Assembly: GCA_938002655.1 (NCBI GenBank)
Contig: CALLAC010000001.1
Location: 310,001 to 374,000 of the forward strand
Source of the DNA: an uncultured Cytophagales bacterium
GTDB lineage: Bacteria > Bacteroidota > Bacteroidia > Cytophagales > Thermonemataceae
DNA: 64,000 nucleotides
Direction: 5' to 3'
Both the position numbers and the translations under genes were made by a program. Below are positions 11,353 to 15,946 of the stretch, in pieces. Within the stretch, counting starts at the first letter, position 1; every line of letters begins with the position of its first letter. Under the pieces are notes generated by a model. It had not been told where the DNA came from. It made no database searches and was given only the letters and a program-made list of their open reading frames with translations.

Positions 11353-14300
11353 TTACTTCATCACCTGCACCCAGCCTTTACAAATAGCACCCGAAGGAGC
11401 TTCAAATTGATAGTAGTACAATCCTGCGAGTATTTCTTTTTGCATTCCCCATTCATTTTGATAATTATCGGTTTTGTAAATGGGTTTTCCCCACCTATTC
11501 CAAATGGTGAGCTTTGCTCCTTTTTCCTCTATGACAAAAGTATCGTTGATACCGTCTCCATTAGGCGTTATAGTGTTGGGTGGAATACGTAAAGAAGGTA
11601 CTTCAAATTCCTTTTTCACTACTTTCTGACATCTTTGGCTAGCATATGATAGTGTAACTGTATAATTTTGCCCTTGTTCATCATTTTGGTTGGGGAAAGT
11701 ATAAAGCGGCGGCTCAATACCTTGTAAAACCACACCATTGCTCAAAGTCCAAGTAACTCTATCATCAGTTACATCTAAAAGCAAGCTATCAGGTACAATG
11801 AGCCTAAATTTTACACTATACGGCGAAAAGCAATCTTTTACTAAATTGACTTCATAGGGCAGTTCAGGTAATTTATCAACTTTGATGGCTACCTTTCGTT
11901 GAGCTGTGCAACTATCGTTTTGTAGTAGCAAAGTGTAAGTAATATCTTCCAGAGGGGTAGCAATAGGATTGGAAATATTGGGGTTATCAAGATAGGTGGG
12001 AGGTGTCCATTGATAGCTTATTGCACCACTTGCCGAAAGTTGTACACTTGAACCCTGACAAATCGAAAGTTTATCAGTAACAATAAATCCAGGAATGGTA
12101 ATATTATATTTCTGCTCTACAACCAAAGGCGATTTGCAAGAAGAGTTATTGAAAATGGTAAGACGAACGGTGTAGATGCCTCCTTTGGTGAAATTAAAAA
12201 AGAAATCGCGTCGGGTATTTTGGGAGAAAATCAGGTTACCGTTTTCATCAAAAATTTCCCATAAAAAACTTTGTGCTCCTACGGAAAGATTTTTGAAGAA
12301 AAGTTTATCTACACATACTACACTATCTTTTTTGATAACGGCAAAGTCATTTTTAGGGTCTTGTGCCTGAAAATCTGCTGAAATATCAAAAGCAATCTTA
12401 AAAGCCGCATTATTACAATTAGAGCTTCCGTTGCTTCTCGACCAAGCTCCAGGCGTAGTAGGAAAGCCATTCGTGCCACGACAAGAAGCACAAACTACGT
12501 GGTAAATGGTGCCATCTTTGGAAAAACGACTCGTGCCACCATCTACGTGGTCGCCGTTTTCATCACTTGAATTTTCGCCGAAGAAAGTAGCATAAATAAG
12601 CCCTTGCATATCTTTCCGATATACTGCTAAATAGAAATCGCTTCCATTGATACTAGTTGTTCGGATGGCGTCGTTCGTAGTAGGCATATTGCGAACATCA
12701 CTGCCTTCGTTGTTTCCTCCCGAACTTCTGTTGATACCTCCTCCCCAGCCTGCAATATAGATGTTTCCACAATTATTTTCAGTAACTACCATAAAAGCTG
12801 TTGGTGAAATATCAGGATTTCCATCGCCTGCTCCTATACGTGTACTCCAAATCGAAGTACTAAGATTTCCATCAATTTTATGAATAAATTGCCCACTGTT
12901 GGGGTTGTTGTACACGCCTGCACTTACGGGATAATTGCCAAAAGTTTGCCCGAAAGCATATACGTTTTGGTCAGCATCTAAATCTATCAGAAACACGATA
13001 TCTGCCGCAAAAGTACCTAAATAGGTTGCCCGTAAAAGTGTGCCTGTGGGCGAAAATTTCGCAATAAAGCCGTCGTCATTACCGCGAGCAGTAGCGTGCA
13101 TACTGCCTGCGGTAGCAGGGAAATTGTTGCTGGTAGTCCCTCCGCCCACATATACTTCGCCTGCGGTATTGGTTTTGATAGAAAGGGCGAAGTCAAGTCC
13201 GTTGCCTCCTAGATAGGTTCCCCAAAGAATATTGAGGTTTTCGTCCATTTTTACTACCAAACCATCTTGTGAACCTTGCAGCGAACCAGCAATTCCCAGA
13301 ATACTTGTAGAGCGTGTAGTAGAGGCAATGTAAACGTTCTTGTTTTCGTCGGTGTAGATATCACCTCGCAATTCGTCGCCGTAATTATGAATAAAAGTTG
13401 TAGCAATATCACGAGGCTTGATACCGTCGTTGCCTGTGCCTCCTATCAGGCGAGAGCGATTGAGCGAGCCATTCGGATTGATTTTCATTATAAAAATATC
13501 ACTTCCATTTGCATATTCATTACCCAAAAGGTTTACGCTACTGCCTCCTATGAAAGTTGAACCCATTGTAATGGGAAAATCAGTTGAAGAAGTGGTGCCA
13601 AAAATAAGCAGTCGGTTATCTTTATCTACCACCAGGCTATGAGCAACTTCCGAGCTACTGCCACCAATGAAAATAAGTTGTTCTAGAGTTGTTCCTGTGG
13701 CGTTGTAGCGAAAAACAGCAATATCACTTCTCAAATATTGGTTATTCGAGCCACCTGGACCAATCTTGATAGGTCCGGTAAAGCGTGGAAAATCAGTGCC
13801 ATACGTTGTACCTGCCGAATAGAGTTTGCCATTGTTATCAAAAGTGGCGGTATTGCCCCAATTATCAGAACGCCCTCCTGAATAGGTTGAAAAAATAAGC
13901 TCGGGGTCTATGATAAGCGGATAATCTCTATGGTAACCTTGGGGAAAATAAAAACTGACGACATTTTTTTTCAAAATAAATTCTGTGGGAATTTCTATTT
14001 TTTTGCCTTCGATTATTTGATAGCTATAAGGCTTTTTTTCATATACACTGCCTACCGAAGTTTTAATTTCCAAAGAACCATCAGGCAAGATTTCAACGGC
14101 ATCAGCAAATTTAATATGCATCTGAATTTTGCGGGCATCGGCTTGCGGCTTGATAATAAACTCGTATTTCAAGTTTTCGCCTTTGCTAAAAAGGCGGTAG
14201 TCAATGTTTTTGTAGAGATTATGATAATAAAGTTCTTGATAACTTTTTACATCAGTTGCCCAATGTTTAGGGTTATTGCCTTTGTAGAAAAAGTAACTTT

Positions 14301-14649
14301 CAGCATTACTACGGCGGGCTTCTATGCGTGTGTGTGGATTAGCTTTCAAAAAGTCAATAACAAAGCTATGAGCGGCAATACCATTTTTAGCTTCTTGCGG
14401 GTAAAGTTCGGGGTGTTTACGATAAAAGAGTGCTTTACCATCGTAGAAGCTATATTGTAGAGCATTGGCATAAACAAACAGATAGCCACTATTGAGTTCG
14501 GCTCGGTAGCGAATTGTATCTTCCCACTGATTTTTATTTTCTACGAAACGAATAGCGTTATCATTATGCAAAGCTACTTGCCTAAAATTTTGAGCCCAGA
14601 TAACTTGCAAAGTATGAAAGAATAATACAAATAACGTTCTGAATTTCAT
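11353..14649 (-). CDS. Large exported protein with DUF7948-like/SBBP region and T9SS type B sorting domain
   Basis: 1098 residues. A signal peptide occupies about residues 1-19 (ending VIWAQ). Residues about 30-250 resemble the DUF7948 N-terminal domain (FVENKNQWEDTIRYRAE; LIIDPELIFSTYSGG). About 250-640 is a beta-propeller-like SBBP region with repeats of the type GTTYGTDFP and GTTSSTDFPI. PKD/immunoglobulin-like domains follow. The C-terminus (PNTITPNGDGINDTF, then IWNRWGKPIY) is the gliding motility-associated type B sorting domain used by the type IX secretion system. It is therefore probably secreted or cell-surface attached; its ligand or substrate is unknown. Transcribed alone from its own promoter, divergent from ompA. 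Confidence 0.9.
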   Translation of the reverse strand: MKFRTLFVLFFHTLQVIWAQNFRQVALHNDNAIRFVENKNQWEDTIRYRAELNSGYLFVYANALQYSFYDGKALFYRKHPELYPQEAKNGIAAHSFVIDFLKANPHTRIEARRSNAESYFFYKGNNPKHWATDVKSYQELYYHNLYKNIDYRLFSKGENLKYEFIIKPQADARKIQMHIKFADAVEILPDGSLEIKTSVGSVYEKKPYSYQIIEGKKIEIPTEFILKKNVVSFYFPQGYHRDYPLIIDPELIFSTYSGGRSDNWGNTATFDNNGKLYSAGTTYGTDFPRFTGPIKIGPGGSNNQYLRSDIAVFRYNATGTTLEQLIFIGGSSSEVAHSLVVDKDNRLLIFGTTSSTDFPITMGSTFIGGSSVNLLGNEYANGSDIFIMKINPNGSLNRSRLIGGTGNDGIKPRDIATTFIHNYGDELRGDIYTDENKNVYIASTTRSTSILGIAGSLQGSQDGLVVKMDENLNILWGTYLGGNGLDFALSIKTNTAGEVYVGGGTTSNNFPATAGSMHATARGNDDGFIAKFSPTGTLLRATYLGTFAADIVFLIDLDADQNVYAFGQTFGNYPVSAGVYNNPNSGQFIHKIDGNLSTSIWSTRIGAGDGNPDISPTAFMVVTENNCGNIYIAGWGGGINRSSGGNNEGSDVRNMPTTNDAIRTTSINGSDFYLAVYRKDMQGLIYATFFGENSSDENGDHVDGGTSRFSKDGTIYHVVCASCRGTNGFPTTPGAWSRSNGSSNCNNAAFKIAFDISADFQAQDPKNDFAVIKKDSVVCVDKLFFKNLSVGAQSFLWEIFDENGNLIFSQNTRRDFFFNFTKGGIYTVRLTIFNNSSCKSPLVVEQKYNITIPGFIVTDKLSICQGSSVQLSASGAISYQWTPPTYLDNPNISNPIATPLEDITYTLLLQNDSCTAQRKVAIKVDKLPELPYEVNLVKDCFSPYSVKFRLIVPDSLLLDVTDDRVTWTLSNGVVLQGIEPPLYTFPNQNDEQGQNYTVTLSYASQRCQKVVKKEFEVPSLRIPPNTITPNGDGINDTFVIEEKGAKLTIWNRWGKPIYKTDNYQNEWGMQKEILAGLYYYQFEAPSGAICKGWVQVMK

Positions 14650-14701: not shown

Positions 14702-14780
14702 GGCATTGCCACATTCTTTGTCTTTTTTGTAATTATTTGCTCTGATTTATGTTAAATACCAATAAATCAAATAATTAAAT

Positions 14781-14799
14781 CATGAAAATTGTTTTCATG
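14781..14799. promoter_or_regulatory. Perfect palindrome in the divergent intergenic region, possible operator
   Basis: CATGAAAA (14781-14788), TTG, TTTTCATG (14792-14799): a perfect 8-bp inverted repeat with a 3-base spacer. It lies 31 bases upstream of the -33 element at 14831 and about 130 bases from the divergent gene. Symmetry and placement suit a dimeric transcription factor; the factor is unknown. Confidence 0.4.
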
Positions 14800-14830
14800 T
14801 TGGTGCAACTCAAAAAAATTCAAAAAAATC

Positions 14831-14861
14831 TTTGAATATTCATAAAAGTTTTTTAACTTTG
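14831..14861 (+). promoter_or_regulatory. Promoter of the leader RNA / ompA
   Basis: TTTG at 14831-14834, 19 bases, TAACTTTG at 14854-14861: a full Bacteroidota -33/-7 pair. Transcription should begin near 14868, only about 20 bases before a strong terminator hairpin. Confidence 0.65.
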
Positions 14862-14867
14862 GGGTAA

Positions 14868-14922
14868 TCATAGCTGGTTGAAGGATAAAAGACCTGTTGC
14901 ACTTTGTGACAGGTCTTTTTTT
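14868..14922 (+). ncRNA. Candidate short terminated leader RNA upstream of ompA
   Basis: The predicted transcript from the promoter at 14831-14861 ends at an intrinsic terminator after roughly 55 nt. No open reading frame of useful length is present. It could be a free small RNA or the terminated product of an attenuator controlling the OmpA gene that starts at 15014; no second promoter is obvious between 14922 and 15014. The start point is inferred from the -7 box only. Confidence 0.4.
14887..14922 (+). terminator. Intrinsic terminator within the ompA leader
   Basis: AAAGACCTGT (14888-14897) pairs with ACAGGTCTTT (14909-14918) across an 11-base loop, and the T-run extends to 14922. No gene on this strand ends upstream (the preceding gene runs the other way), so it must stop transcription started between 14650 and 14886. 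Confidence 0.7.
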
Positions 14923-15013
14923 AGTAAACATTTTTGGAATTGTGGTTGTTATGTGTGTAAATTTACGTAAATTTTTTAATAAATGTTTTTTTCAACCTCA
15001 AAACCATAGTTTT

Positions 15014-15874
15014 ATGAAACAATTAGGATTTTTTTTGCTGTCTTCGGTACTTTTTTTTGCTTGCGTACCTAAAAAGAAACTCAAAGAGTTAGAAGCAAAA
15101 TACGCAAGTTTAGAACAACTCAACAAAGAATATTTCACTGATTTGGCTTCAACAAAAACAGCTCTTAATGCTTGCAATAGCGATAAAGCAAGATTAGAAA
15201 GCGAAGTAAAGGAACTTAAAGAAATGAATGCCAAGCTTATTCGTCAAGTAACTGAAATGTCTACGCTTTCTGCTGAGCAAGCTAAAAATTTGCAAGTTTC
15301 ATTGGAGCAGATGAAAGAAAAAGATTTGCAAATCAAAACTTTGAACGAGGCTATCAACAAGCGTGATTCAATGACTATCGCTTTGGTTACTCAGCTCAAA
15401 CGTGCCGTAGGTACAGATAACCAAGATATTGAGGTAAATGTAGATAAAGCTGTAGTGATGATTAGCATTTCTGAAAAACTCTTGTTCAAGACAGGAAGCT
15501 ACGAAATTCGTACCGATAACCCCCAAACATTTCGTCAGATAGAAGCTATTGCCGCTGTACTCAAAGACCGCCCTACTTTTGATGTGCTTATTGAAGGACA
15601 TACAGACAATGTTCCTTTCAAAAGAAGAGGAGATATCTACGACAATCTAGATTTGAGTGTAAAAAGGGCAACCTCTCTTGCTCGTTTGCTTTATCAGCGT
15701 ATGGGTGTAAATCCTGCACGCCTCATTCCTGCGGGTAGAGGCGAATTTGTGCCTTTGGTAGCTAATGATAGTGAAGAAAACCGTGCTAAAAATCGCCGTA
15801 TCCGTGTGGTAGTCATGCCTAAAATTGAGGAATTCTATGGTATGATTGAGCAAGGCATGAAAGGAGGTAAATAG
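15014..15874 (+). CDS. OmpA-family peptidoglycan-binding lipoprotein with coiled coil
   Basis: 286 residues from the ATG at 15014; the upstream in-frame extension to 14897 would run through the terminator and was rejected. An N-terminal lipoprotein signal ends FFAC (Cys17), followed by a lysine-rich stretch and a coiled coil (about 20-120). The C-terminal OmpA domain has the peptidoglycan-binding block IEGHTDNVPF and the NRAKNRRIRVVV ending. Probably anchors the outer membrane to peptidoglycan. Expression may depend on read-through of the upstream leader terminator. Confidence 0.92.
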   Translation: MKQLGFFLLSSVLFFACVPKKKLKELEAKYASLEQLNKEYFTDLASTKTALNACNSDKARLESEVKELKEMNAKLIRQVTEMSTLSAEQAKNLQVSLEQMKEKDLQIKTLNEAINKRDSMTIALVTQLKRAVGTDNQDIEVNVDKAVVMISISEKLLFKTGSYEIRTDNPQTFRQIEAIAAVLKDRPTFDVLIEGHTDNVPFKRRGDIYDNLDLSVKRATSLARLLYQRMGVNPARLIPAGRGEFVPLVANDSEENRAKNRRIRVVVMPKIEEFYGMIEQGMKGGK

Positions 15875-15911
15875 ATCTCTTTGTTTTGTACTCGAAATTT
15901 TACTATCTATG

Positions 15912-15946
15912 CGGCAACATTACTTTTCGGTGATGTTGCCGTTTGT
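15912..15946 (+). terminator. Terminator of the OmpA gene
   Basis: A 12-bp stem, CGGCAACATTAC (15912-15923) with GTGATGTTGCCG (15930-15941), one wobble pair, 6-base loop and a short T-rich tail. It begins 37 bases after the ompA stop. Confidence 0.65.

Follow-up and report, generated by a model that had tools for sequence, protein, structure and literature searches.

The window, a stretch of 64,000 nucleotides of genomic DNA from an uncultured Cytophagales bacterium, carries a short promoter-terminator unit that is very probably a small RNA (sRNA) gene. The fuller reading, which is favoured with less assurance, is that the gene is free-standing, that its product acts in trans by pairing at mRNA start codons, and that it belongs to a family found in the Cytophagales. 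Comparison across genomes shows the putative members to have their own promoter, an invariant 16-nt segment at or near the 5' end, changing gene neighbourhoods and an optional, covarying 5' hairpin. Judged by its sequence, the window copy is a minimal family member, with a proposed seed and a terminator and no 5' hairpin.

The promoter-terminator unit

The consensus promoter of Bacteroidota is TTTG/TAnnTTTG. A perfect promoter of this type, P1, lies on the forward strand at 14831-14861, with TTTG at 14831-14834, a 19-nt spacer and TAACTTTG at 14854-14861; it is kept in congeners, so the -33/-7 promoter of the preliminary description holds. An A-rich tract on the same strand at 14808-14830, 5' of the -33 box, is also kept in both congeners (alignment L002, L003, L004) and may possibly act as an UP-like element.

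The predicted sRNA of about 55 nt occupies 14867-14922 (forward strand); its 5' end is expected at 14865-14868 and its 3' end at 14919-14922. The invariant segment CATAGCTGGTTGAAGG, found by pattern searches in genomes of the order and proposed as the antisense seed, lies at 14869-14884 (forward strand), right at the predicted start site. It is followed by hairpin H2 (14887-14922, forward strand; stem 14887-14919, T-run to 14921), a GC-rich hairpin with a T-run directly behind it, as is typical of an intrinsic terminator. Positions 14868-14922 fold with -19.3 kcal/mol (z -4.09) and none of 200 shuffled sequences does as well, which bears out the strong terminator described earlier. A simple promoter and terminator scan, which seeks sigma-70 hexamers and hairpins with loops no longer than 8, listed neither P1 nor H2.

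The upstream open reading frame (11353-14649) is on the opposite strand, and its product is a large protein that combines DUF7948 with a CHU_C secretion domain; it was correctly stated that no gene on the same strand precedes the unit. Downstream on the forward strand lies ompA (15014-15874), which encodes an OmpA-family lipoprotein of 286 aa (Pfam PF00691, E 1.5e-16). A strong terminator of 14 pairs is found after ompA at 15911-15942, before an enoyl-CoA hydratase-like gene.

When the region is aligned with its relatives, a block some 110 bp long, from the A-tract through the promoter and start region to the terminator, is near-invariant in two congeners and both of its flanks have diverged. 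OmpA itself is 94% identical between the window genome and these two close Raineya congeners, and in one of the two the upstream gene is replaced by a different one.

Relation to ompA

The preliminary description offered two options: either the ~55-nt RNA is itself the product, or the terminator is an attenuator of ompA. The first is supported by the recurrence of the unit, free-standing, in many genomes without ompA alongside; the second finds no such support. As a cis-acting leader, the unit would have P1 transcripts stop at the hairpin until a signal permits read-through. The unit does adjoin ompA in the same orientation in all three close Raineya genomes, but only there. In the fourth genome of the genus, sRNA copies are located apart from the ompA homologue, and copies elsewhere have other neighbours, among them an accC-like gene (family f19), dnaK (f16) and a GNAT gene (Thermonema, G004).

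The leader also lacks the folding behaviour of an attenuator. All three Raineya genomes preserve GGTTGAA (14876-14882) and TTCAACC (14991-14997), which pair in the folded read-through RNA; however, this pairing encloses the terminator and leaves it undisrupted, and in the best fold of 14868-15013 the terminator stays intact. No alternative pairing that breaks the terminator stem, which the preliminary description had proposed looking for, was found in this fold.

A second promoter, P2, lies between the terminator and ompA on the forward strand at 14933-14965, with TTTG at 14933-14936 and TAAATTTA at 14958-14965. In both congeners the box reads TAAGTTTG, a perfect match, where the window has TAAATTTA; the spacing, 21, is on the long side. 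It is likely, from these elements, that ompA is transcribed from P2, 3' of the sRNA terminator. Pairing between the sRNA and the ompA leader is predicted to be weak (-13.8, -12.1 and -13.5 kcal/mol; 142, 343 and 428 of 1000 shuffled RNAs pair at least as strongly), and ompA is by this modelling a poor target of the sRNA. Attenuation of ompA is highly improbable on these grounds, and the remark in the preliminary description that no OmpA attenuator of such form is known becomes moot.

Spread and architecture in the Cytophagales

A DNA search of 390 genomes of the order returned weak matches that share the 5' end of the RNA; these loci contain TCATAGCTGGTTGAAGG, and the terminator behind it differs in sequence from locus to locus. 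The 17-mer, allowing one mismatch at most, occurs in 70 of the 390 genomes and 43 of 129 genera, against about ten matches in total for the reversed control pattern in the same genomes. The exact 16-mer with a downstream T-run is found in 40 stretches in named genomes, almost all of them Cytophagales, including Raineya, Thermonema, Thermoflexibacter, Microscilla, Flexithrix, Bernardetiaceae and Microscillaceae. Culturable hosts among the exact 16-mer matches are Raineya orbicola, Thermonema rossianum and Thermoflexibacter ruber. Across the class, 4 of 395 genomes carry the exact 16-mer; one of these is the window's own, and the other three have it without promoter and terminator.

A covariance model, R2, was built from 64 matches of an earlier model, R1. 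Its training set included a class A copy of congener G002 but neither the window copy nor the two ompA-adjacent Raineya copies. R2 finds the window copy at 14838-14923 (39.3 bits, E 4.6e-8) and has matches in 105 of the 380 genomes of the order that it was run on, in 89 of the 341 of good quality and in 62 of 128 genera. The best E is below 1e-6 in families f1, f2, f4, f5, f7, f9 and f15-f21, these E-values being rough and many of the matched families having been in the training set. Weak single matches (E 1e-4 to 0.01) in f11, f13 and some f19 and f20 genomes are doubtful.

The copies occur in three forms. In form A, that of the window, the start site is at the motif and the terminator follows. 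Form B has a 5' hairpin of 10-12 pairs, then UUUCUUUU, the motif and the terminator. Form C begins with a larger 5' hairpin, in whose loop there can be a further GGGCUGGUU; CUUUCUUUC, the motif and a hairpin with or without a T-run follow.

Signals for initiation and termination accompany the motif. A perfect TAnnTTTG lies within 75 nt upstream in 49 of 98 distinct motif instances from the fetched loci, a set in which known non-sRNA instances are included (shuffled mean 7.07, maximum 15 in 200 rounds); a hairpin with a T-rich tail lies directly downstream in 81 of the 98, compared with 4 of 98 when shuffled. The TAnnTTTG boxes are mainly 0-9 nt (21 cases) or 40-49 nt (19 cases) before the motif. 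These two distances fit RNAs without and with a 5' hairpin, as forms A and B predict.

Both hairpins covary. Among 21 form B sequences, 94.3% of cells are paired and 20 of 24 pairs show two-sided changes. The covariation score is 0.553, compared with 0.218 for shuffled and at most 0.137 for slid alignments; the alignment, made by R1 to fit the structure, includes 8 or 9 rows (of 21) on which R1 was trained. RNAalifold recovers the same helices from these rows, together with a small one in the motif region whose pairs never vary. In relatives the terminator occupies the same place with a different sequence and a preserved stem. The invariant part of the RNA is its single-stranded part.

Copy number varies between genomes. 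Most have one or two copies. The window genome has one exact motif copy and, in R2, three matches at E <=0.01 (G000), two of them not placed; several copies are found only in some relatives, and G052, G103 and G140 have ten or more R2 matches. In G103 (contig C42, L161:935-1690), three near-identical tandem copies with repeated upstream sequence lie within 750 bp. One viral contig (IMGVR_UViG_3300036376_000018, L408:7112-7159) holds an intact-looking copy with 5' hairpin, CATAGCTGGTTGAAGG and terminator; a second viral match (L407) resembles coding sequence. G117 (f16; L217, L219, L220, L093) has several exact motif copies, some of which are sRNA genes and others of which sit at the start codons of genes for membrane or secreted proteins; L220 could be either.

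Copies in f5 genomes (L073-L079) have no T-run. They were first excluded as chance antisense of the end of a lutB-like open reading frame and then reinstated, because L077, L079, L150 and L184-L186 show the same architecture in other settings. A tmRNA gene adjoins one sRNA copy in an f5 genome (L079:743-1106).

The presence of up to ten or more copies in Microscillaceae genomes, some of them in tandem, and the copy on a viral contig would suit a repeated or mobile terminator-like element with no function as RNA. Such an element would hardly be expected to stay at one or two copies in most genomes, to keep its promoter at two fixed distances and its stems by compensatory changes, or to have its single-stranded part as the invariant one; this explanation is very improbable, and an sRNA gene remains the preferred reading.

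Predicted targets and relation to known RNAs

In the proposed mechanism, the single-stranded invariant segment would bind mRNAs on the start codon or immediately ahead of it: its CAU would pair with AUG and its GCUGGUUGAAGG with the preceding CCUUCAACCAGC, and ribosome entry would be blocked. Predicted targets differ by genus, namely nth in a relative within the genus, metY-metX-hom in Thermonema and tetR-tolC-hlyD in Raineya. Given an sRNA, an antisense block of the translation start has about an even chance of being its action. A more specific proposal is tentative: the 16-nt segment would be fixed across the order because it reads AUG (as CAU) plus the 12 preceding bases, and genera would recruit different operons with no known chaperone.

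Some motif matches without promoter or terminator are complements on start codons. In congener G002 the nth start reads UAUCCUUCAACCAGCUAUGACAAAG, 20 nt perfectly complementary to the RNA with the AUG included. In two Thermonema genomes the metY start AUCAACCAGCUAUGAGU is in the same register, as is the hom start, which reads UUCAACCAGCUAUGAGU or, with a G-U-tolerated change in the other species, UUCAACCGGC. The duplex energies are -35.7 (nth, G002), -27.6 (hom) and -31.6 kcal/mol (metY), and 0 of 1000 shuffled RNAs do as well. Two start-codon sites with at most one mismatch in one genome of 2700 genes have a chance probability of about 0.001, an estimate that uses start-region base frequencies from the fetched loci. 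The metY-metX-hom operon is seen in the Thermonema-like G006 (L409:1925-5587), and the metY and hom complements are also kept in a second genome (L410 region, L254, L260).

In three Raineya genomes a long imperfect site, UUCAACCCGCUAUGAUG, lies 14-22 nt before a tolC-like gene for an outer membrane efflux protein, which has tetR before it and hlyD after it. The leader duplexes have -28.3, -26.0 and -29.1 kcal/mol, with 0 of 1000 shuffled RNAs as good. The site also encodes the last codons of tetR (FNPL, stop), and its conservation may therefore be partly coding. In the window's own genome this tetR-tolC-hlyD arrangement, with its imperfect complement at the tetR stop codon, is on contig C1 near 124.5 kb (L411:1610-3658).

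In sRNA-bearing genomes, 8 of 59 one-mismatch complements are on start codons (baseline 2.4% for any ATG and 4.2% for T-ATG); in f10, f11 and f20 the count is 3 of 28 sites, which were assigned by hand after sites in f9, f16 and f21 were dropped because those families carry the RNA. The start-codon share does not differ between sRNA-bearing and sRNA-free genomes in this comparison (Fisher p 1.0); the general one-mismatch test therefore lends the targets no support and they stay predictions. In the genomes of Raineya and Thermonema, complements with two mismatches do not outnumber matches of the reversed control.

A rougher count weighs the sites against the reversed pattern. Among the matches listed, non-sRNA one-mismatch sites and reversed-pattern matches stand at 83:49 in 32 sRNA-bearing genomes and at 39:61 in 25 genomes of f10, f11 and f20 (Fisher p 0.0003); these are hand tallies with some sRNA-bearing genomes, those of f1 among them, left out, and the reversed pattern holds CpG and is an imperfect control. 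For the exact 14-mer, 5 of 8 non-sRNA sites among the matches listed are start codons (L148, L093, L220, L241, L383), or 4 of 7 without L220, which is also an sRNA-like R2 match on the other strand.

The invariant segment could instead be a protein-binding site, the RNA titrating or guiding a protein that reads GCUGGUU in the manner of CsrB and CsrA. In both length and constancy the segment exceeds most seeds. Shared targets would be expected of a fixed 16-nt seed, yet those found by complementarity are not common to different genera. Copies in f1, f5 and f15 (L150, L184-L186, L075-L076) carry GGGCUGGUU or AGCUGGUUGA a second time, in their 5' hairpin loop, and many copies can show UAGCUGGU in a small loop. 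However, most copies have a single motif, there is no candidate protein for GCUGGUU, and long exact complements on start codons (cf. CUUCAACCAGC) are left unexplained, which makes a protein site the less likely role, at perhaps one chance in a handful. Far less probable still is that the RNA mimics or partners a universal RNA, for instance 23S rRNA: AUAGCUGGUU presumably resembles a 23S segment, and 23S rRNA gave no match in the window's genome assembly. Pairing at start codons is retained as the preferred action of the sRNA.

Rfam 15 gives no match in the window at the gathering score and nothing above noise at 14750-15030 even at E 5; among 25 relative loci it finds only the tmRNA near one copy. 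The letters of the motif were not found in the literature searched, and the matches listed there for Cytophagales sRNAs include nothing relevant. No broadly conserved Cytophagales sRNA was found in Rfam or in the literature searched; to our knowledge, Bacteroidota sRNAs outside Bacteroides are hardly charted. The unit very probably represents a new family of sRNAs, of a kind already known, whose conservation is unusually strict.

Enterobacterial sRNAs of the MicA and RybB type are short, have a 5' seed, act antisense to the translation starts of outer membrane protein genes and depend on Hfq. The present RNA is likewise short with a 5' seed and, here, a predicted tolC-like outer-membrane target. 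It differs in that no Hfq was found in the window's genome, and the Rfam scans reveal no sequence relation. Sibling sRNAs such as LhrC and Qrr are present in several copies with a common segment, one shared seed and private promoters; several copies (in some relatives), a common segment and private promoters are found here too, again with no sequence relation in the Rfam scans.

The closest likeness is to FopS (with GibS) of Bacteroides. These are paralogous sRNAs with a conserved single-stranded 5' seed followed by a Rho-independent terminator; FopS is about 65-70 nt long, has canonical Bacteroidota promoters and is present in several copies with diverging 3' parts (PMC11697453). The same source describes FopS as conserved within Bacteroidaceae at 12-15 copies per genome, with RbpB, an RRM protein, as its binding partner, and as pairing at translation initiation regions, such as that of susC; it also occurs on a phage contig (PMC11697453).

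The Cytophagales sRNA shares with FopS the single-stranded 5' seed, the terminator, the Bacteroidota promoter, a copy on a viral contig, the predicted pairing at translation initiation regions and, in some relatives, several copies whose 3' parts diverge. It differs from FopS in its distribution in the Cytophagales, in often having an extra 5' hairpin and in being single-copy in the window genome by exact motif, and the window's genome shows no RbpB-type RRM-1 partner. By analogy it likely works in the same way as FopS. No RRM protein (PF00076) was found in the window's genome, which is 97.5% complete, in contrast to the Bacteroides control, where one is present; with neither Hfq nor an RRM protein found, there is no known chaperone.

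Two questions are raised by the family: why the seed is held constant when its targets are not, and how an RNA of this kind can act where the genome shows neither Hfq nor an RRM protein. If the proposed pairing is true, methionine synthesis, DNA repair and drug efflux would come under one seed through complements gained at start codons. The family gives a clear handle on this: its 16-nt core is fixed, its predicted start-codon targets can be tested and some of its hosts can be cultured.
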